Part shown: positions 27,289-46,074 of the stretch, one piece after another | Position numbering within the stretch: the stretch's first letter is position 1 | How the letters are laid out: each line of letters begins with the position of its first letter | Source: Rubrivivax sp. | GTDB lineage: Bacteria > Pseudomonadota > Gammaproteobacteria > Burkholderiales > Burkholderiaceae_C | NCBI GenBank assembly: GCA_020848515.1 | Contig: JADLIA010000100.1 | Span: 1-46,076 of the forward strand | DNA: 46,076 bases | Direction: 5' to 3' | The notes under the pieces: model-generated | What the model was told of the DNA's origin: nothing | The model's database searches: none | The model's input: the letters and a program-made list of their open reading frames with translations, nothing else | Made by a program: the position numbers and the translations under genes

Positions 27289-28149
27289 TCAGCCGCGTGC
27301 CACCGGCAGCCCTGGGGTGCGGCACCACTCGCTCCAGCTGCCGGCGTACAGCGCCGCCGGGGCATAGCCGGCCAGCTCCATGGCCAGCAGGTTGGGCACG
27401 GCGCTGACGCCGCTGCCGCAGTGGTGCACCACGCCGGCCGGGTCGCGGCCGGCCAGCAGGGCGTCGAATTCGGCGCGCAGCTGGGCCGGCGCCTTGAAGC
27501 AGCCGCGCCCATCCAGGTTGTCGACGTAGGGGCGGTTGAGCGCGCCGGGGATGTGGCCGGCCACCGGATCGAGCGGCTCCTCGTCACCGCGAAAACGCGC
27601 GGCGGCGCGGGCGTCGATCACGGTCTGCCCGGGCTGGCCCAGCCCGGCCTGCACCTCGTGAACGTGCAGCAGGCGGCGCCGCGGTGGCTGCAGCTGGAAC
27701 CGGGTGGCGGGGTGCTCGGCCGCCGGGCCGGAGGCCACCGCGCCGCCCGCCGCCAGCCAGGCCTGCAGGCCGCCGTCCAGCACCGCCACCGCGTCGTGAC
27801 CCGCCCACTTGAACATCCACCACAGGCGGCCGCAGTAGTTGCAGCCGTTGCGGTCGTACACCACCGCCTGCATGGGGTTGGCAAAGCCGACCGCGGACAG
27901 CCAGGCGGCAAAGCGCTCACGCGGGGGCAGCGGGTGGCGCCCGCCGTTGATGGCCTCGGCCGGCGGGTGGGCGCTGAGGTCGCGCTCCAGATGCGCCTGA
28001 CGGCTGCCGGCGATGTGCTGTTCGGCAAACATGGCGTCGGCCCGGGCCGGGTTGCCCAGTTCGCCGCTGCAGTCGAACACCATCAGCGGCGCGCCGCTGG
28101 CCTGCAGCGCCTGAAGTTCGGCGACGGTAATGAGGTGGGTATAGGTCAT
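27289..28149 (-). CDS. sseA: Rhodanese-type sulfurtransferase (3-mercaptopyruvate sulfurtransferase-like)
   Basis: Two-domain sulfurtransferase of 286 residues. The N-terminal rhodanese domain is inactive in form. The C-terminal domain carries the active-site loop HHCGSGVSAVPN with its catalytic cysteine, the CGSGVxA type seen in 3-mercaptopyruvate sulfurtransferases rather than the CRKGVT of thiosulfate rhodaneses. Expected donor 3-mercaptopyruvate; cytoplasmic, no signal peptide. It is 14 bases downstream of the EamA gene on the same strand and probably in the same transcript. Confidence 0.88.
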   Translation of the reverse strand: MTYTHLITVAELQALQASGAPLMVFDCSGELGNPARADAMFAEQHIAGSRQAHLERDLSAHPPAEAINGGRHPLPPRERFAAWLSAVGFANPMQAVVYDRNGCNYCGRLWWMFKWAGHDAVAVLDGGLQAWLAAGGAVASGPAAEHPATRFQLQPPRRRLLHVHEVQAGLGQPGQTVIDARAAARFRGDEEPLDPVAGHIPGALNRPYVDNLDGRGCFKAPAQLRAEFDALLAGRDPAGVVHHCGSGVSAVPNLLAMELAGYAPAALYAGSWSEWCRTPGLPVARG

Positions 28150-31683: not shown

Positions 31684-33588
31684 ATGTCCCAAGCCCTGCT
31701 CGAATCCATCCACAGCCCGGCCGATCTGCGCCGCCTGCCGCGCGCGCAGCTCAAGGGCCTGGCGGACGAACTGCGCGCATGCGTGCTGACCAACGTGGCC
31801 CGCACCGGCGGCCACCTGAGCTCCAACCTGGGCACGGTGGAGCTCACCATTGCGCTGCACTACGTGTTTCAGACGCCACACGACCGGCTGGTGTGGGACG
31901 TCGGCCACCAAACCTATCCGCACAAGATCCTGACCGGGCGACGCGAGCGCATGCCCACGTTGCGTCAGCTGGGCGGCATGTCCGGCTTTCCGCGCCGCGA
32001 CGAAAGCGAGTACGACACCTTCGGCACCGCGCATTCGTCCACCAGCATCTCGGCCGCGCTGGGCATGGCGCTGGCGGCGCGACAGAAGGGCGAGGACCGC
32101 CACGCGGTGGCCATCATCGGCGACGGCGCCATGACCGCCGGCATGGCTTTCGAGGCGCTCAACAACGCCGGGGTCGAGCGCGACGCCCGCCTGCTGGTGG
32201 TGCTCAACGACAACGACATGTCCATCAGCCCGCCGGTGGGCGCGCTCAACCGCTACCTGGCGCAGCTGATGAGCGGCCACTTCTATGCCGCCGCCAGGAG
32301 CGTGGGCAAGACGGTGCTGGGCACGGTGCCGCCGCTGTTCGAGCTGGCCCGGCGGCTGGAGCAGGGCGCCAAGGGCATGGTGGTGCCGGCCACGCTGTTC
32401 GAGAAGTTCGGCTTCAACTACATCGGTCCGATCGACGGCCACGATCTGGATTCGCTGATCCCGACGCTGGAAAACATCCGCGACCTGATGCGCGACAAGG
32501 CCGGGCCGCAGTTCCTGCACGTGGTCACCAAAAAGGGCCAGGGCTACAAGCTGGCCGAGGCCGATCCGGTGGCCTACCACGGCCCAGGCAAGTTCGATCC
32601 GGCGGTGGGCCTGGTCAAGCCCAGCGCCCCGGCAGCGCCCACCTTCACCCAGGTGTTCGGGCAGTGGCTGTGCGACATGGCGGCGCACGACCGCAAGCTG
32701 GTGGGCATCACCCCGGCCATGCGCGAAGGTTCGGGCATGGTCGAATTCCACAAGCGCTTTCCGGACCGCTACTACGACGTCGGCATTGCCGAGCAGCATG
32801 CCGTCACCTTTGCCGCCGGTCTGGCCTGCGAGGGCCTCAAGCCGGTGGTGGCCATCTATTCCACCTTCCTGCAGCGCGCCTACGACCAGCTGATCCACGA
32901 CGTCGCCATCCAGAACCTGCCGGTGGTGTTCGCGCTGGATCGCGCGGGCCTGGTCGGTGCCGATGGCGCCACCCATGCCGGCAACTACGACATCGCCTTT
33001 CTGCGCTGCGTGCCCAACGTCAGCCTGGCCTGCCCGGCCGACGAACGCGAGTGCCGTCAGTTGCTGACCACGGCCTACGAGCAGAGCCATCCGGTGGCGG
33101 TGCGCTACCCGCGTGGTGCCGGAGCCGGCGTGGCACCGCTGGCTCAGCTGACCGGGCTGCCGTTCGGCAAGGGTGAAGTCCGGCGCCAGGGCAAGGGGGT
33201 GGCCATCCTGGCGTTCGGCACGCTGCTGTACCCCGCGCTTGCCGCCGCCGAACGGCTGGACGCCACGGTGGTCAACATGCGCTGGGTCAAGCCGCTGGAC
33301 GCCGAGCTGCTGCTGCAGGTGGCAGCCAGCCACGACGCGCTGGTGACGATCGAGGAGGGCGCCATCATGGGTGGTGCCGGCAGCGCCGTGGCCGAGGCGC
33401 TGGCCGCGGCCGGGGTGGTCAAGCCGCTGCTGCACCTGGGCCTGCCTGACCGCTTCATCGAGCACGGCGATCCGGCGCGACTGCTGGCGCTCGAGGGCCT
33501 GGATGCCACTGGCATCGAGGGTTCGGTGCGCTCGCACCTGGGCTCGTGGCTGATGCCGCCTCAGCGCAACCTGAAAGCGGTCAGCTGA
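31684..33588 (+). CDS. dxs: 1-deoxy-D-xylulose-5-phosphate synthase
   Basis: First enzyme of the MEP isoprenoid pathway (pyruvate plus glyceraldehyde 3-phosphate to DXP), thiamine-diphosphate dependent, cytosolic. The 634-residue protein has [19 protein letters not shown], the TPP motif [18 protein letters not shown], the catalytic [12 protein letters not shown] and [15 protein letters not shown], and a C-terminal transketolase domain. It is complete and of normal length. ispE at 11488 belongs to the same pathway. Confidence 0.98.
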
Positions 33589-37358: not shown

Positions 37359-37513
37359 CGGGATCTCCGTGAGGGGGCGTGGTGCGCAGGGTGGGCGCGA
37401 CCAGGGGCGGCGGTAACCGGGTGGGCCATGCCGCAGACAGATCGCAGGCGATTGTAATGAGGCCCCTGGGGCGGCGCCGTATAGCATCGGCACGGTCTGC
37501 GCCATTCGACACC

Positions 37514-38254
37514 ATGAGCACCCTGGCCGAAAGCGCGCGCGCCGCGCTGCAACTCATCGCTTCGCTGGACCCGTTGCTGTGGTCGGTGGTGGGCCGATCG
37601 CTGGCGGTCAGCGGGCTGGCCTGCCTGCTGGCCTGTGGGGTCGGGCTGCTGGCCGGTGCATCGCTCGCGGTGGCGCGCTTTCGCGGGCGCGAGGCCGTGC
37701 TGACGCTGCTGCACACCCTGCTGGCCCTGCCGTCGGTGGTGGTCGGGCTGCTGGTGTATCTGCTGCTGTCGCGCAGCGGCCCGCTGGGTTTTCTGGGTTG
37801 GCTGTTCAGCTTTCAGGCCATGGTGCTGGCGCAGGCGGTGCTGGTGGTGCCGGTGATCGCCGCGCTCACGCGCCAGACGGTGGAAGACGCCGACCTCCGG
37901 CATGGCGAGCAGCTGGCGTCGCTGGGTGCCGGCCCTTGCCTGCGCGGGTTGCTGCTGGCCTGGGACGAGCGCTGCGCCCTGCTGATGGTGCTGATGGCGG
38001 CGTTTGGCCGGGCGGTGTCGGAGGTGGGCGCAGTGATGATCGTCGGCGGCAACATCGACGGCTTCACGCGGGTGATGACCACCGCCATCGCGCTGGAGAC
38101 CAGCAAGGGCGATCTGCCGCTGGCGCTGGGCCTGGGCATGGTGCTGCTGTCGGTGGTGCTGCTGCTCAACGCCGCCATGGCCGGCCTGCGCCATTGGCGA
38201 GCGCGCACCGACGCTCTGGCCCCCGGCGCGGTGCAGGGACGGTGGGCCGCATGA
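37514..38254 (+). CDS. tupB: Tungstate ABC transporter permease TupB
   Basis: Inner-membrane permease of a tungstate importer, 246 residues. About six hydrophobic segments (LACLLACGVGLLAGASLAVA, LLALPSVVVGLLVYLLLS, FQAMVLAQAVLVVPVIAAL, LLSVVLLLNAAMAGL) and a cytoplasmic loop GEQLASLGAGPCLRGLLLAW resembling the EAA loop, plus MIVGGNIDGFTRVMTTAIAL. Start at 37514. It overlaps the next gene by four bases (ATGA). Assignment to tungstate rests on the substrate-binding protein encoded at 38994. Confidence 0.88.
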   Translation: MSTLAESARAALQLIASLDPLLWSVVGRSLAVSGLACLLACGVGLLAGASLAVARFRGREAVLTLLHTLLALPSVVVGLLVYLLLSRSGPLGFLGWLFSFQAMVLAQAVLVVPVIAALTRQTVEDADLRHGEQLASLGAGPCLRGLLLAWDERCALLMVLMAAFGRAVSEVGAVMIVGGNIDGFTRVMTTAIALETSKGDLPLALGLGMVLLSVVLLLNAAMAGLRHWRARTDALAPGAVQGRWAA

Positions 38255-38994
38255 GCCGTCCCGCCGGCCCCCCGGGCGCAGCGGCGCCGCTGATCCGCCT
38301 GCAGGATGTGGGCGTGCGCTTCGGCCGGGTGCAGGCGCTGCAGGGCGTGGGGCTGGAGATCGCCGCCGGCGAGTGCGTGGCCCTGATCGGCGGCAACGGC
38401 AGCGGCAAGAGCACGCTGCTGCGGGTGATCCACGGTCTGATCGCGCCGACCGAGGGCCAGCTGGTGGTGCCGGCGCGCCGGGCGCAGGCGATGCTGTTTC
38501 AGCGCCCCTGGATGATGCGCACCACGGTGCTGCGCAACGTCGCGCTCGGGCTGTGGCTGCGCGGCCTGCCGTGGCGCCAGGCGCAGGAGCGCGCGTTGCG
38601 GGCGCTGGAGCGCGTGCAACTGGCCGAACTGGCGTCGCGCCGCGCGCCCGGCCTGTCGGGCGGGCAGCAGCAGCGCGTGGCGCTGGCGCGTGCCTGGGCG
38701 CAGCAGGCGCAACTGCTGTTGCTGGACGAGCCCACGGCCAGCCTGGACCCGCACGCCAGGCTCGAGGTCGAGGCGCTGATGCGCGCGTTCACCGGCACGG
38801 CGCCCGACGCGGCGCCGTTGACCATGGTGTTCGCCAGCCACCACCTGGGCCAGGTCAGGCGCCTGGCGCAGCGGGTCATCTGTCTGGACCAGGGGCGCGT
38901 GCTGGCCGATCTGCCTGTGGCACAGTTCTTCGACCACGCGCGGCTGAGCTCGGTGGCGCCGGTGGCGGCGGCCTTCGTGCAAGGAGAAATGTGA
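38251..38994 (+). CDS. tupC: Tungstate ABC transporter ATP-binding protein TupC
   Basis: ABC ATPase of 247 residues: Walker A LIGGNGSGKST, signature LSGGQQQRVALARA, Walker B QLLLLDEPTASLD, and the H-loop in VFASHHLGQ. It sits between tupB (ATGA overlap) and tupA (TGATG overlap), so the operon is tightly coupled. The specificity is inferred from TupA. Confidence 0.9.
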   Translation: MSRPAGPPGAAAPLIRLQDVGVRFGRVQALQGVGLEIAAGECVALIGGNGSGKSTLLRVIHGLIAPTEGQLVVPARRAQAMLFQRPWMMRTTVLRNVALGLWLRGLPWRQAQERALRALERVQLAELASRRAPGLSGGQQQRVALARAWAQQAQLLLLDEPTASLDPHARLEVEALMRAFTGTAPDAAPLTMVFASHHLGQVRRLAQRVICLDQGRVLADLPVAQFFDHARLSSVAPVAAAFVQGEM

Positions 38995-39821
38995 TGCAAA
39001 AATTCAGAAACTTTTGGCCTCTGGCGCTTTTGCAGACTGCGCTGGCAGCTATCTTAACGATAGCATTTCCGGTGGCCTGGGCGCAAACCATCGTGATGGC
39101 CTCGACCACCTCGACCGAACAGTCGGGGTTGTTTGCCCACCTGCTGCCGCAGTTCCGCCAGGCCAGCGGCATCGACGTCAAGGTGGTGGCGGTGGGCACC
39201 GGGCAGGCGCTGGACATCGCCCGGCGCGGCGACGCCGATGTGCTGTTCGTGCATGACCCGAAGGCCGAGGAGCAGTTCGTCACCGACGGCTGGGGCCTCA
39301 AGCGCCACCCGGTCATGTACAACGACTTCGTCCTGGTCGGCCCGCGCAGCGACCCGGCCGGGGCGCGCGGCCGCGACATCGTGCAGGCCATGCGGCAGTT
39401 GGCGGGGGCGCACGCGCCCTTCATTTCGCGCGGCGACAAAAGCGGCACCCACAGCGCCGAACTGCGCTACTGGGCCCAGGCGGGCCTGACCGAAGCGCGC
39501 GGGCGTGGCTATCGCGAATGCGGTTGCGGCATGGGGCCGGCGCTGAACATGGCTGCCGCCAGCGGCGCCTACGTGCTGGCCGACCGGGGCACTTGGCTCA
39601 ACTTCAGGAACCGGGCCGACCTGGCAATCCTGGTCGAAGGCGACCCGCGCCTGTTCAATCCCTACGGCGTGCTGGTGGTCAACCCGGCACGCCACCCGCA
39701 GGTCAAGGCCGCCGAGGCACAGAAGTTTGTCGACTGGGTGACGTCGCCCGCCGGTCAGGCCGCCATCGCCAGCTACCGCATCGGGGGCCAGGCGTTGTTT
39801 TTCCCGGACGCGCGACCTTGA
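38994..39821 (+). CDS. tupA: Tungstate-binding periplasmic protein TupA
   Basis: Substrate-binding component, 275 residues, with a cleavable signal peptide (residues 1-30). The mature protein begins TIVMASTTSTEQSGL, the TTTS-x-x-SGL motif I associate with tungstate-binding TupA proteins, followed by VVAVGTGQALDIARRGDADVL and SRGDKSGTH. The hydrophobic core of the signal peptide (about residues 10-24) lies in a copy of the short repeat (39023-39064). The start ATG overlaps the tupC stop. Confidence 0.92.
   Translation: MQKFRNFWPLALLQTALAAILTIAFPVAWAQTIVMASTTSTEQSGLFAHLLPQFRQASGIDVKVVAVGTGQALDIARRGDADVLFVHDPKAEEQFVTDGWGLKRHPVMYNDFVLVGPRSDPAGARGRDIVQAMRQLAGAHAPFISRGDKSGTHSAELRYWAQAGLTEARGRGYRECGCGMGPALNMAAASGAYVLADRGTWLNFRNRADLAILVEGDPRLFNPYGVLVVNPARHPQVKAAEAQKFVDWVTSPAGQAAIASYRIGGQALFFPDARP
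39023..39064 (+). repeat. Short palindromic repeat with 17-bp core (39048-39064), inside tupA
   Basis: GGCGCTTTTGCAGACTGCGC, then TGGCA, then the core GCTATCTTAACGATAGC (perfect GCTATC/GATAGC arms). It is translated as LLQTALAAILTIA in the tupA signal peptide. Confidence 0.82.
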
Positions 39822-39907
39822 GGCGGCGTCTGACCCCCTGAACAGGTGACTGGACTCGCAGAAAATGAAATAATAAGTATCCAGTTACACTTTCAGGAGG
39901 GTTGGTC

Positions 39908-41107
39908 ATGGCATGTTTCCCTTCCTGGCGGACGCTCTGCCACCATGCGTTGGGCGTTGCGCTTGGCCTGCTGCTGCTGCCGGCGCAGGCCCAGATCCGG
40001 GTGTCGATCAATCCGGGCGACCAGATCGAGGCCGATCGCGTGGGCATCTTCAACGCCTGGAAGGGCGCGCTGGATGCCGGGCTGCGCAAGGCCGGCGCCA
40101 GCGCGGCGCAGGCCCGCTTTTCCAGCGACGCCACGGCCGACATGAATGCCGGCCGCGCCAACGTGTTCGACCTGATGGTGGGGCCGGCGCCGGTCATCGG
40201 CAGCGCCGTGCGCTACGGCTACGTGCCGGTGGTCGGCGCCACCCAGAAGGCGCGCGCCGTGCTGGTGGCGGCCGAGGGCAGCGCCATCGCCGACTGGGCC
40301 CAGAGCAAGGGCAAGCGCCTGGGCATGCCGGGCCAGGACAGCGTGGTGACCTATCTGCTGCGTGGCGAGGTGCAGGCCGGCAACACCACGCTGGCACGCC
40401 AGTACCCGTCGATCTACCAGACACGCTACCAGGACGCCCTGCTGACCTGCCTGGAGCTGCGCCGCTGCGACGTGGTGGCGGTGGAGGAGGTCGTGGCCAA
40501 GCGCTGGGCGGCGAGCGGCAAGAAGGTCAAGGTGGTCTGGCAGAGCCGCGAGGTGCCGGGTCTGAGCGTGGCGCTGCACAAGGACGCCCAGGTGTCGGCC
40601 GACACCCTGCGCAGCGCGCTCATGGCCGAGCTGGCCAGGCTCGATGCCTTTGGCTACACCGGCACGTTGACGGTCAAGGATTTCGAGTACGTGTCCACGC
40701 TGGGCTACTTCACGCCGCGCACCCTGGAAGGCGCGACCCTGATCGAAGACCCGGCGCAGGTGGAGTCGCTGCTGGCCGCTGGCGCGCGCTATATCGACGC
40801 ACGCAACCAGGAAGAGTTCGCCGCCGGCCATGTGCCGGGCGCCATCTTGGTGCCGTACGTCGAAAAGAGCGCCAAGGATCCGGGCTACGACCCCAAGCTG
40901 GATCAGTTCGACCTCCAGCGCCTGGGCGACAACAAGGCGCAGCCGCTGGTGTTCGGCTGCAACGGCCCGGAATGCTGGAAGAGCTTCAAGGCCAGCCGCG
41001 CCGCCCTGCAGGCCGGCTACACCAAGGTGTACTGGTTCCGCACCGGTGTGCCGGCCTGGCGCAGTTCGGGCCGCCCGCTCGATCGTGGTGACGCCAAGGC
41101 GGGCTGA
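39908..41107 (+). CDS. Periplasmic binding protein / rhodanese fusion
   Basis: Secreted two-domain protein of 399 residues with a signal peptide (about 1-28, ending AQA). Residues about 30-270 resemble a PhnD/SsuA-like periplasmic substrate-binding domain (VSINPGDQIEADRVGIFNA, LMVGPAPVIGSAVRYGY, KRLGMPGQDSVVTYLL). Residues about 285-399 form a rhodanese domain (YIDARNQEEFAAGHVPGAI) with catalytic loop FGCNGPECWKS, having a second Cys five residues after the first and a Trp, recalling the CW-containing rhodaneses linked to PQQ-dependent catabolism. A good Shine-Dalgarno (CAGGAGGG) sets the start at 39908. It is placed 86 bases after tupA and convergent with modC. The ligand and sulfur acceptor are unknown. 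Confidence 0.85.
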   Translation: MACFPSWRTLCHHALGVALGLLLLPAQAQIRVSINPGDQIEADRVGIFNAWKGALDAGLRKAGASAAQARFSSDATADMNAGRANVFDLMVGPAPVIGSAVRYGYVPVVGATQKARAVLVAAEGSAIADWAQSKGKRLGMPGQDSVVTYLLRGEVQAGNTTLARQYPSIYQTRYQDALLTCLELRRCDVVAVEEVVAKRWAASGKKVKVVWQSREVPGLSVALHKDAQVSADTLRSALMAELARLDAFGYTGTLTVKDFEYVSTLGYFTPRTLEGATLIEDPAQVESLLAAGARYIDARNQEEFAAGHVPGAILVPYVEKSAKDPGYDPKLDQFDLQRLGDNKAQPLVFGCNGPECWKSFKASRAALQAGYTKVYWFRTGVPAWRSSGRPLDRGDAKAG

Positions 41108-41115
41108 ACGGGGCG

Positions 41116-42222
41116 TCAGTCGAGCACCGCCACGCCCTTGATCTGGGCATACACCGACTGCCCGGGCGCCAGCGCCAGCGCCTCGGCCGATTTGCGCGTG
41201 ACGCGCGCCAGCAGCGGTGTGGCGCCGAGGTCCAGCGCCACCAGCACCTGCGCCGGGCCGTCTTCGGCCAGCGAACGCACGCGGGCCGGCAGCACGTTGA
41301 GGATGCTGGTGTCGTGCGCGGCGGACAGGCACAGGCTGACGTCACGCGCCTGCACCCGCAGGCGCACGCGCTGGCCCGGCGTGCGCGGCGGGGTGCCGGC
41401 GCTGTGCACGCAGTGCAGGACACCGTGATCGAACGCCACCTGCAGCAACTGGTAGTGCGGGTCGAAGCTCAGCACCTGTGCGCTCACCAGCGCGCTGGCG
41501 GCATCGCCCTGGGTGCGCGCCACGTCCGGGCGCGTCAGCAGCGCCTCGACCGGGCCGTGCGCGACGACCTCGCCATCGCGCAGCAGCACCAGGTGGTCGG
41601 CCAGGCGGATCACTTCGTCGAGCGCATGGGTGACGTACAGCATCGGCAGGCGCAGCTCGCGCGTCAGCCGCTCGAAGTAGGGCAGCAGTTCGGCCTTGCG
41701 TGCGGCATCCAGCGAGGCCAGCGGCTCGTCCATCAGCAGCAGGCGCGGGCTGGTGGCCAGCGCGCGCGCGATCGCCACCCGCTGGCGCTCGCCGCCCGAC
41801 AGCTGCGCCGGGCGGCGTGCCAGCATGGGGCCCAGGCCCAGCAGCTCGATCGCCTGCGGCAGCGCCACGCGCCGCTCGGCGGCGGGCACGCGCTGCAGAC
41901 CGAAGTCCAGGTTGCCCTGCACCGTCAGGTGCTCGAACAGGCTGGCTTCCTGAAACACCAGGCCCAGCGGGCGCCGGTGGGTGGGGCGCCAGATGCGGTG
42001 CGCGTCGTCCTGCCACACGTCGCCGCCCACCGCCACGCGCCCCGGTGACGGCCGCGTCAGCCCGGCCACGGCGCGCAGCAGCGTGGTCTTGCCACAGCCC
42101 GAGGGGCCGAACAGCGCCGTCACGCCCTGGCCTGGCAGGCGCAGCTCAACCCCGAGCCGAAAGCCGCTGCCCATGCGCACCTGGGCGCGCAGTTCGATGT
42201 CGTGGCCGGTGCCCTGCGTCAT
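41116..42222 (-). CDS. modC: Molybdate ABC transporter ATP-binding protein ModC
   Basis: ABC ATPase of 368 residues: Walker [11 protein letters not shown], signature [13 protein letters not shown], Walker [13 protein letters not shown], switch His in YVTHALDE, then a C-terminal Mop (molybdate-binding, TOBE-like) domain ending [20 protein letters not shown]. The ATG start overlaps the modB stop (ATGA). It powers molybdate import with ModA and ModB. It is convergent with the PBP-rhodanese gene, 8 bases apart. Confidence 0.96.
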
Positions 42223-42905
42223 GCCGGCGCCTTGCGCGATTGCGTCAGGTGCAGGGTCAGCAGCACCAGGAAGCTGAACACCAGCATGCCGCCGGCCAGC
42301 CAGTGCGCCTGGGTGTATTCCAGCGCCTCGACATGGTCGTAGATCTGCACCGAGATGACGCGCGTCTGGCCGGGGATGTTGCCGCCGATCATCAGCACCA
42401 CGCCAAATTCGCCCAGGGTGTGGGCGAAGCCCATCACGGCGCCGGTCAGGTAGCCCGGCCGCGCCAGCGGCAGCGCCACATGCAGGAACGCATCCAGCGG
42501 GCTGGCGCGCAGCGTGGCCGCGGCCTCCAGTGGGCGGCGGCCGATGGCTTCGAAGGCGTTGACCAGCGGCTGCACCACGAAGGGCAGCGAATACACCAGC
42601 GAACCCAGCAACAGGCCCCAGAAGCTGAACGCCAGCGTGCCCCAGCCCAGCGCCTGCGTCAGGCGGCCCAGCGGACCCTGTGGCCCCAGCATGACCAGCA
42701 GATAAAACCCCAGCACCGATGGTGGCAGCACCAGTGGCATGGCCACCAGCGTGCGCACCGGCGTGCGCAACCAGGCCAGCGCGCCCGCGTCGCCGCGCGC
42801 CAGCCACCACGCCAGGGGCGTGCCCAGCACCAGCAGGATGCAGGTGGTGGCCAGCGCCAGCTCGATCGAGAGCCGGACGGCGGCAAGGCTGGTGGCGTCA
42901 AGCAT
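42219..42905 (-). CDS. modB: Molybdate ABC transporter permease ModB
   Basis: Inner-membrane permease, 228 residues from the ATG at 42905 ([16 protein letters not shown]), with about six helices and the EAA loop [20 protein letters not shown]. The motif [20 protein letters not shown] is typical of ModB. An upstream ATG (42953) would add a 16-residue leader. Overlaps modC by four bases. Confidence 0.95.
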
Positions 42906-42952
42906 GGGGCAAAGCAAATGCTCAGGCGGCGCCGGGGCGCCGCCGTAACTCA

Positions 42953-42990
42953 TGTTTTGATAGCTGTTGGCGCTTGATGTGCAAGCGCCG
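42953..42990 (-). repeat. Short palindromic repeat, partial copy D, between modA and modB
   Basis: On the minus strand it reads CGGCGCTTGCACATCAAGCG, then CCAACAGCTATCAAAACATG. The GGCGCTTG/CAAGCGCC hairpin is perfect. The left arm GCTAT of the core is present; the right arm is not. It lies in the modA-modB gap, where the hairpin could act on the transcript. Confidence 0.78.
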
Positions 42991-43014
42991 AAGGCCCATT
43001 TTGCCTTGAAGGGC

Positions 43015-43833
<819 letters not shown>

Positions 43834-43841
43834 AGTCTAAC

Positions 43842-45011
43842 TCAGGGAACGAAGGGATTGGCGAACTCGGGGCGCGCAAGCATGCGGTCGTCCGTCAGCG
43901 CACGCAGGAAGGCCACCAAGTCGGCCTGGTCCTGCGCGTCGATGTCGATCTGATCGATCCGCGGATCCTTGTACGGGTTGGCGCGGCCGTCGCCTTCGTA
44001 CGGGCCGTTGCCGAGCACGCGGCCGCCGGCGGCATGCAGCGCCACCACCGCTTCCAGCGTGGCGACGCTGCCGTCGTGCAGGTAGGGTGCGGTCAGCGCG
44101 ACGTTGCGCAGGCTGGGCGCGCGGAACCTGCCCATGTCCTCGGGCCTGCCGGTGAATTCGAGCAAACCCCGGTTGTTGGTCGGGTAAGCACCGGTGCCGC
44201 CGATGTTGAACAGGCCGATGTTGTAGAACCCCGGCTCGCCCACGCGGCCCTGGGCGCTGACGAACGCACCGCCGCCCAGGTTGGGGCCGCTGTGGCACTG
44301 CGCGCAGAGCGCGCGCTCGCCGAAGAACAGGCGCTGGCCGCGCTGCTCGCTTTCAGTCAGCGTGGCCGTGCCGGCCAGCGCCTGGTCGTAGCGGCTGCCG
44401 GCCGCCACCAGCGTGCGCTGGAAGGCGGCGATGGCCTTGATCACGTTGTCCCAGTGGATGGGCATCGCTTCGCCGCCAAAGGCCTGGGCGAAACGCGGCG
44501 GGTAGCGTGCGTCGTCCTTCAGGCGCTGCACGATGGCGTCGCGGTTGGTGTCGTTCACACCCATCTCGACCGGCTGCTCGCCGAACAGGGGCGTGTGCAT
44601 CTGCTGCTCCAGCGTGCGCGGCGCCGGGTTGCTCCAGTCCAGCGTGGCCTGGTAGGCGGCGTTGACCAGGCTGGGTGCGTTGCGCGGGTGGTTCTGCCCG
44701 GTGGCGCCGCGCGCCACGGCGCGGCCGTCGGCGAAGGCCAGGTTGACGGCGTGGCAGCCGGCGCAGGACAACGTGTTGTTGACCGACAGGCGCACGTCGT
44801 AGAACAGGTGGCGCCCCAGCTCCACCTTGGCTGCATTCATCGGGTTGTCGGCCGGCACCAGGGGCGGCGCCAGGCCTGCCGGCAGTGACCAGGCCCAGGC
44901 TGGCGGCACCGGCGGCGGTCCTGCATCGGCGCTGTCCCCGCCGCCGCAGGCGGCAAGCGACAGCAGGGCAAGTGCGGCAGCGACGCGAGCGCGCAGCGGT
45001 GTGTGCGTCAT
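43842..45011 (-). CDS. MbnH-like di-heme peroxidase-family lipoprotein
   Basis: Predicted lipoprotein of 389 residues with two c-type heme sites, CAGCH (83-87) and CAQCH (236-240). The signal peptide ends in the lipobox SLAAC (Cys22), followed by an Asp at +6. The conserved text WSLPAGLAPPLVPADNPM then AAKVELGRHLFYD and DGRAVARGATGQNHPRN resembles MbnH, the di-heme enzyme that oxidises tryptophan to kynurenine in the copper-binding partner MbnP. No MbnP-like gene is adjacent in this window. The gene faces away from the lipoprotein at 45100; modABC lies downstream on the same strand, 71 bases on. Family likely, function inferred. Confidence 0.87.
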   Translation of the reverse strand: MTHTPLRARVAAALALLSLAACGGGDSADAGPPPVPPAWAWSLPAGLAPPLVPADNPMNAAKVELGRHLFYDVRLSVNNTLSCAGCHAVNLAFADGRAVARGATGQNHPRNAPSLVNAAYQATLDWSNPAPRTLEQQMHTPLFGEQPVEMGVNDTNRDAIVQRLKDDARYPPRFAQAFGGEAMPIHWDNVIKAIAAFQRTLVAAGSRYDQALAGTATLTESEQRGQRLFFGERALCAQCHSGPNLGGGAFVSAQGRVGEPGFYNIGLFNIGGTGAYPTNNRGLLEFTGRPEDMGRFRAPSLRNVALTAPYLHDGSVATLEAVVALHAAGGRVLGNGPYEGDGRANPYKDPRIDQIDIDAQDQADLVAFLRALTDDRMLARPEFANPFVP

Positions 45012-45099: not shown

Positions 45100-46074
45100 A
45101 TGAACATGACGGCACGGCAGGACACGGACTCTTTCTGGGCGCGCGCGCGGCGCGGGCTGCTGGTGGCTACCGGGTTTGCCTTGCTGTCGCTTGCCGCCTG
45201 CGGCGGTAACGGCGACGACGAGGTGGCCGACCGTGGCCCGACCACCATCGAGGTCCAGGCCAAGCTCAACGGCCTGTACTGGGATGCGCAGGCATCGCGT
45301 CTGTACCTGACCGACGACGAGGCAAACGTCAATGCCATCAGAATCTGGGACGGCGACGACAAGTTCTCCGTGGCGCACCAGCTGCCGGCCATGGAGGCCA
45401 ATCAGCGTCACTCGCTGGGCCAGCTCACGCGCGCTGCGGACGGCACGCTGTACGTCACGCGCTTCGGCTTCGGCAGCTACGGCACGGTGGTCGCCGTGCC
45501 CAAGTCGGGCCAACCCTACAACCTGACGGGACTGGCCGGCGACCGCCGGCGCATCGCCATCACGCCCACGGCCGACGGCAAACTGATCGACGGCTGGTTC
45601 CGGGGTGGCGGCGCGCCCGGACCGAGCGGCGTGATCAGCGAGCTGACCGTGGCCGCCGGCGGGCAGGCCAGCGAGCAGGACCTGATCACGGGCCTCAGCA
45701 AGCCTGCCGGGGTGGCGGTGGTGGGCGACCAGCTGTTCGTGTCCGACCAGGGCACGGGCAAGGTGCTGGCCTATTCGCTGGCCGCCGTGCGGGCGCAGCC
45801 GGCGAAGGCCGAGGATGGGCGCGTCGTTGCCGAGTTCATCTCCGCCGACAGCATCGATCTGATGACGGCCGGGCCCGATGGCACGCTGTTCTTCGGCGGC
45901 GGCGCCGGCACGCTGTACGCGGTGGCGCCGGACGGCAAGGTCAGGACGCTGGCCAGCGGCTGGCCCGGCATCCGCGGCGTGGCCTACGACGCGCAGAACA
46001 AGCGCCTGTTCGCGGCCGTGACGGCGCCCAACGCCGCCAGCCCGGCCACCATCCGCATCGTGCCGATCGATTGA
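45100..46074 (+). CDS. Beta-propeller-like (SMP-30/NHL type) lipoprotein
   Basis: Predicted lipoprotein of 324 residues; the lipobox is SLAAC with Cys at about residue 34, after an N-terminal positively charged stretch (RARRG). The lipid-anchor region LLSLAACGG is nearly the same as that of the di-heme gene opposite. The mature part is built of short repeats with a YWD/LYV/LFV pattern (GLYWDAQASRLYLTDDEAN, DGTLYVTRFGFGS, GDQLFVSDQGTGKVLAYSL, GTLFFGGGAGTLYAVAPDGK), as in six- or seven-bladed propellers. Function unknown. RBS AAGGA lies 8 bases before the ATG. The stop codon is at the end of the window. Confidence 0.8.
   Translation: MNMTARQDTDSFWARARRGLLVATGFALLSLAACGGNGDDEVADRGPTTIEVQAKLNGLYWDAQASRLYLTDDEANVNAIRIWDGDDKFSVAHQLPAMEANQRHSLGQLTRAADGTLYVTRFGFGSYGTVVAVPKSGQPYNLTGLAGDRRRIAITPTADGKLIDGWFRGGGAPGPSGVISELTVAAGGQASEQDLITGLSKPAGVAVVGDQLFVSDQGTGKVLAYSLAAVRAQPAKAEDGRVVAEFISADSIDLMTAGPDGTLFFGGGAGTLYAVAPDGKVRTLASGWPGIRGVAYDAQNKRLFAAVTAPNAASPATIRIVPID

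Follow-up and report, generated by a model that had tools for sequence, protein, structure and literature searches.

A conserved periplasmic binding protein-rhodanese fusion of Burkholderiales and its possible role in sulfur-oxyanion handling

What might a bacterium do with a solute-binding domain and a rhodanese carried on one secreted chain? The question is raised by a gene of Rubrivivax sp. (assembly GCA_020848515.1, contig JADLIA010000100.1, positions 1 to 46,076 of the forward strand; the window, as we call it here, is this whole stretch of 46,076 nucleotides). A preliminary description had presented the gene as a secreted fusion of a periplasmic binding protein (PBP) and a rhodanese, and its parts are as follows.

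39894-39900, + strand: Shine-Dalgarno-like AGGAGGG, a few bases 5' of the ATG (direct sequence reading)
39908-41107, + strand: PBP-rhodanese fusion gene, from the ATG at 39908 to a stop ending at 41107, product 399 aa (open reading frame, Pfam domains, AlphaFold model)
39908-39994, + strand: putative Sec signal peptide, residues 1-29, cleavage site approximate (translation inspected by eye)
39995-40723, + strand: class II periplasmic binding-protein domain, about residues 30-272 (PF12974 match, fold matches)
40751-41065, + strand: rhodanese domain, residues 282-386 (PF00581)
40958-40978, + strand: active-site loop C351-N-G-P-E-C356-W357 (translation)

The two-domain reading was borne out, as PF12974 matches residues 67-241 at 44.6 bits (cut-off 27) and PF00581 matches the rhodanese residues at 53.9 bits (cut-off 22.2), which places the protein in both Pfam families. 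Secretion had also been proposed, and the N-terminus, MACFPSWRTLCHHALGVALGLLLLPAQAQ, does read on inspection like a Sec signal peptide. The loop CNGPECW lies where it had been placed, with the rhodanese active-site cysteine, C351, as the expected nucleophile and C356 at +5 adjoining the tryptophan. Structure prediction, which had been suggested as a check, agreed: in an AlphaFold model built with 31 relatives as input (mean pLDDT 88.3, pTM 0.83) the first domain resembles class II binding proteins of known structure, the best match being ArrX (TM 0.75 by target length, E 2.4e-15) followed by PtxB, PhnD and AioX, all of which cover that domain. A profile search with the fusion found PtxB (5jvb, E 1.3e-8) and, over the second domain, rhodaneses of known structure. 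There were no Rfam matches between positions 33000 and 46076 of the window.

The fusion is conserved across many Burkholderiales and is not a one-off. A profile search recovered it at full length in 21 of 399 sampled Burkholderiales genomes, together with stand-alone copies of each domain, six of them binding proteins. In a wider search, of 398 genomes sampled throughout the phylum, the window's protein was the only fusion recovered, beside two matches to the rhodanese alone. Dozens of genera share the architecture, at identities as low as about 30%. A pattern-based scan yielded 69 loci, nearly all with CNGPECWK; as this string had served as a search pattern, the set is biased to one loop type and to related lineages. 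Because most of these loci were found through the loop, we did not use their loop conservation as evidence and re-measured it on profile-found loci. In the window's fusion and 35 such relatives (E-value limit 1e-30, a set that favours conserved members and shares several genomes with the pattern-found set), C351, C356, W357 and K361 are each present in 36 of 36 sequences, with positions 354 and 355 variable. This invariance of both cysteines and W357, together with an architecture kept so widely, confirms that the fusion is genuine and more than chance. The second cysteine at +5 was absent from about 25 other rhodanese loops read in 13 relatives, a few of their open reading frames being unclear.

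The genes beside the fusion point towards sulfur oxyanions. In 21 of 58 pattern-found loci a sulfite-oxidase-family gene of the SorT or SorA type lies within three genes of it, and a representative neighbour matches SorT structures at 1.6e-145. Of nine partner genes scanned from Sor-bearing loci, seven surpassed the equivalog cut-off for SorT or SorA, or approached it with one of the two as best match. For a scan of ten genes, and for L040 scanned apart, the assignments by locus are these.

L036, L061 (one copy), L067: over the SorT cut-off
L062, L069, L074, L082: over the SorA cut-off
L057, L080: SorA match under the cut-off
L061, second gene: SoxC
L040: SorT, 566.6 against a cut-off of 570

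Small cytochromes over the SorU and SorB cut-offs occur in Sor-bearing fusion loci. Fusion and Sor gene may be on the same strand (gaps of 22-98 bp in five loci), divergent or convergent; the negative gaps at L040 and L043 reflect overlapping open reading frame calls and are not meaningful distances. Among 84 genes adjoining fusions, with sulfite-oxidase genes left out, no other Pfam family occurred more than twice. One fusion found by similarity alone (genome G029) has a SorT gene over the cut-off 395 bp away, in divergent orientation. SorT over the cut-off is present in only 5 of 79 genomes, so its adjacency to the fusion would not be expected by chance, although the loci concerned are related. 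No sulfite-oxidase-cluster neighbour was seen at any of 20 fusion loci from an even sample of the order, by which we rejected a tight SorT link as a rule for all fusions. The window's own genome, which is incomplete, gave no SorT match, and no Sor gene lies beside the window's fusion. With none at the 20 even-sample loci and no SorT match in the window's genome, the Sor link is limited to some lineages. Fusion-bearing genomes carried SoxB in 22 of 26 cases and the remaining genomes in 24 of 53 (p 0.0013 by a Fisher test that ignores relatedness), and SoxB is common in Burkholderiales anyway, which reduces the weight of this link.

Based on the Sor neighbours in part of the family, sulfur-oxyanion chemistry is likely. 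Taking the fusion, its conservation, the invariant cysteine pair and tryptophan and the genomic links with sulfite dehydrogenases and SoxB as the observed starting points, we infer a ligand, a catalytic activity, a direction of transfer, a resolving role for C356 and a co-operation of the two domains. From this context we tentatively favour, at somewhat under an even chance, a periplasmic protein of sulfur-oxyanion capture and sulfur exchange with a two-cysteine mechanism. The binding-protein domain would capture a small sulfur oxyanion, the leading candidates being thiosulfate or sulfite, and the rhodanese domain would exchange sulfane sulfur with it. For instance, C351 might attack thiosulfate, releasing sulfite and leaving a persulfide that C356 would resolve as a disulfide. 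Alternatively, the reverse reaction might form thiosulfate from sulfite and the persulfide. Where SorT or SorA is encoded next door, that enzyme would oxidise sulfite to sulfate. In a fuller proposal the protein would be binding protein and enzyme at once: a sulfur (or thio-) oxyanion held by the PBP domain would pass to the two-cysteine rhodanese on the same chain, and there, in the periplasm, sulfur would be taken off or added. We regard this as possible but rather doubtful.

The fusion might instead be a sensor and not an enzyme. Its binding domain would alert a signalling partner to sulfane sulfur or to a sulfur oxyanion, and the rhodanese cysteines would serve as a redox or persulfide switch, much as AioX and ArrX report arsenic oxyanions. 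ArrX and AioX, which are among the closest folds, are binding proteins that act in sensing; what they recognise is the substrate of an adjacent molybdenum enzyme (PMC5908839). Stand-alone, secreted-looking Cx4CW rhodaneses of the same clade lie directly beside a methyl-accepting chemotaxis gene, on the same strand, in many loci (L088-L091, L094, L097, L155-L160, L167 and L169), which also speaks for signalling. Against this, the 25 most frequent of 101 families neighbouring fusions include no histidine kinase, and in the four fusion loci that have a chemotaxis receptor gene it lies four genes off, beside response regulators. We consider a sensing role unlikely.

Other rhodaneses have other surroundings. 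At L163-L166 a stand-alone Cx4CW rhodanese has immediately after it a membrane protein of a PF03601 cluster (one member scanned). At L150-L153, by sequence inspection, two CNGxWCxQS rhodaneses precede genes for a PhnD-like binding protein and a heavy-metal P-type ATPase-like protein, with cbb3-oxidase-like genes nearby; L154 has one rhodanese.

It is also conceivable that the fusion is an ordinary periplasmic sulfurtransferase or thiol-redox protein, whose binding domain merely tethers, dimerises or docks it and has no ligand relevant to the chemistry. The pocket bears on this in two ways. In profile alignment to PtxB (5jvb, 5o2j) the PhnD/PtxB-type pocket is partly lost, only the serine matching S145 being kept: the S-T-S of PtxB is D-S-V in the fusion and the pocket histidine of PtxB is replaced by another residue. 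In 31 fusions, even so, the binding domain carries R83, P93, D144, S145 and Y149 without exception, as would be expected of a working site. Because D144, S145, Y149 and R83 are so kept, the binding site is probably in use; with the PtxB/PhnD-type set incomplete, the pocket does not reveal its ligand. Same-clade rhodaneses that stand alone show that the domain can occur unfused, in keeping with a mere tether, but the clade has also been joined to an unrelated PstS-type domain, which argues the other way. On balance a passive binding domain seems improbable to us.

The immediate surroundings of the window's fusion suggest a third possibility.

37379-39821, + strand: TupB, TupC and TupA, tungstate-type uptake, directly upstream of the fusion (NCBIfam, synteny)
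41116-43770, - strand: ModC, ModB and ModA, molybdate-type uptake, convergent with the fusion (Pfam domains, synteny in four congeners)

ModC ends 8 bases past the fusion stop. TupA (227.6 bits, equivalog cut-off 400) and TupB (161.5, cut-off 320) both score below their NCBIfam cut-offs. Three congeners (G014, G017 and G019) share the order tup-fusion-mod, and a fourth (G018), whose contig starts there, shows fusion-mod. The distant fusion locus L082 is flanked by a SorA gene and, on its opposite side, by ModC/ModB-like genes. The fusion does not appear to be the substrate-binding protein of an ABC transporter, as the tup and mod sets each have their own, and the 25 commonest of the 101 families neighbouring other fusions contain no recurring permease. 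One could imagine that the fusion binds thiomolybdate or another thio-oxyanion and strips off or swaps the sulfur, leaving an oxyanion that Mod or Tup can import; its place between these operons and beside the ModC/ModB-like genes of L082 would fit, as would the Sor partners, which are molybdoenzymes, but no tup or mod neighbours were found beyond the window's genus and L082 at the threshold used and the chemistry would be wholly inferential, so that we regard this as very unlikely. Elsewhere in the window are a second, tandem rhodanese protein (27319-28125, - strand), an MbnH-family di-heme enzyme (43842-45011, - strand; TIGR04039, 428.6 bits, cut-off 362.85) and, divergent from the latter, a lipoprotein-like gene with weak SGL/NHL matches (45100-46071, + strand).

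Returning to sulfur-oxyanion capture and exchange, if both domains share one substrate the fusion would be a capture-and-convert design for extracytoplasmic sulfur oxyanions, tying rhodaneses to periplasmic sulfite oxidation. The proposal also gives a testable role to a conserved two-cysteine rhodanese clade, so far undescribed, that is found with chemotaxis receptors as well. We found no earlier description of a PBP-rhodanese fusion in the open-licence literature.

How, then, does the fusion compare with known systems? Its first domain has its fold in common with the oxyanion binders ArrX, AioX, PtxB and PhnD, all of which, unlike the fusion, are single-domain proteins. SorT/SorU and SorA/SorB sulfite dehydrogenases are frequent neighbours in the pattern-found set, and are partners by context only.

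Among rhodaneses one close likeness is to PQQ_CXXCW (TIGR03865), secreted proteins in which, as in the fusion, a cysteine pair is followed by tryptophan. The loop had been likened to CW-type rhodaneses but with four residues between the cysteines, and this was upheld: the true PQQ_CXXCW members that we read have three (Cx3CW, as in CLADCWMSWNA) against the Cx4CW of the fusion, and they have no binding domain. The fusion matches that profile weakly, at 55.3 bits against a cut-off of 128.05, and in a tree of the rhodanese domain (116 rows by 125 columns, with many forks unresolved) the PQQ_CXXCW members are set apart from fusions and stand-alone copies with support of 100/94; by score, cysteine spacing and tree we rejected membership. 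Two proteins near the PQQ_CXXCW cut-off (L202 and L203) have Cx4CW loops (CSGSRCW and CSGVQCW) and not Cx3CW. The fusions themselves do not form one clade in this tree of many unresolved forks, and a single origin is still possible.

The spacing of the pair recalls TsoB (NF045694), a selenoprotein fusion of rhodanese and DsbD with the published motif UxxxxU (PMC13188914), which is spaced like CxxxxC. The rhodanese part of TsoB matches the fusion at 47.3 bits, far below the cut-off of 805, and the fusion has neither the DsbD part nor selenocysteine; as only the rhodanese part matched, at such a score, membership was again rejected. A search aimed at aligning UxxxxU with C351 and C356 gave only DsbD-type matches.

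A parallel in design comes from within the rhodanese clade itself. Genome G389 encodes two proteins (L161:6848-8245 and L162:7301-8698), with more in two of four congeners, in which a Cx4CW rhodanese of the same clade is placed, as in the fusion, C-terminal to a periplasmic oxyanion-binding domain. That domain is a PstS-type phosphate-binding one (TIGR00975, 259.6 bits, cut-off 205) and that of the fusion is PhnD-like. The rhodaneses of L161 and L162 group with stand-alone copies (93/92), and for this reason the PstS joining looks like a separate fusion event. If so, the same dithiol rhodanese clade would have been joined separately to PhnD-like and to PstS-like domains, which would make the pairing of an oxyanion-binding domain with a two-cysteine rhodanese a recurrent design.
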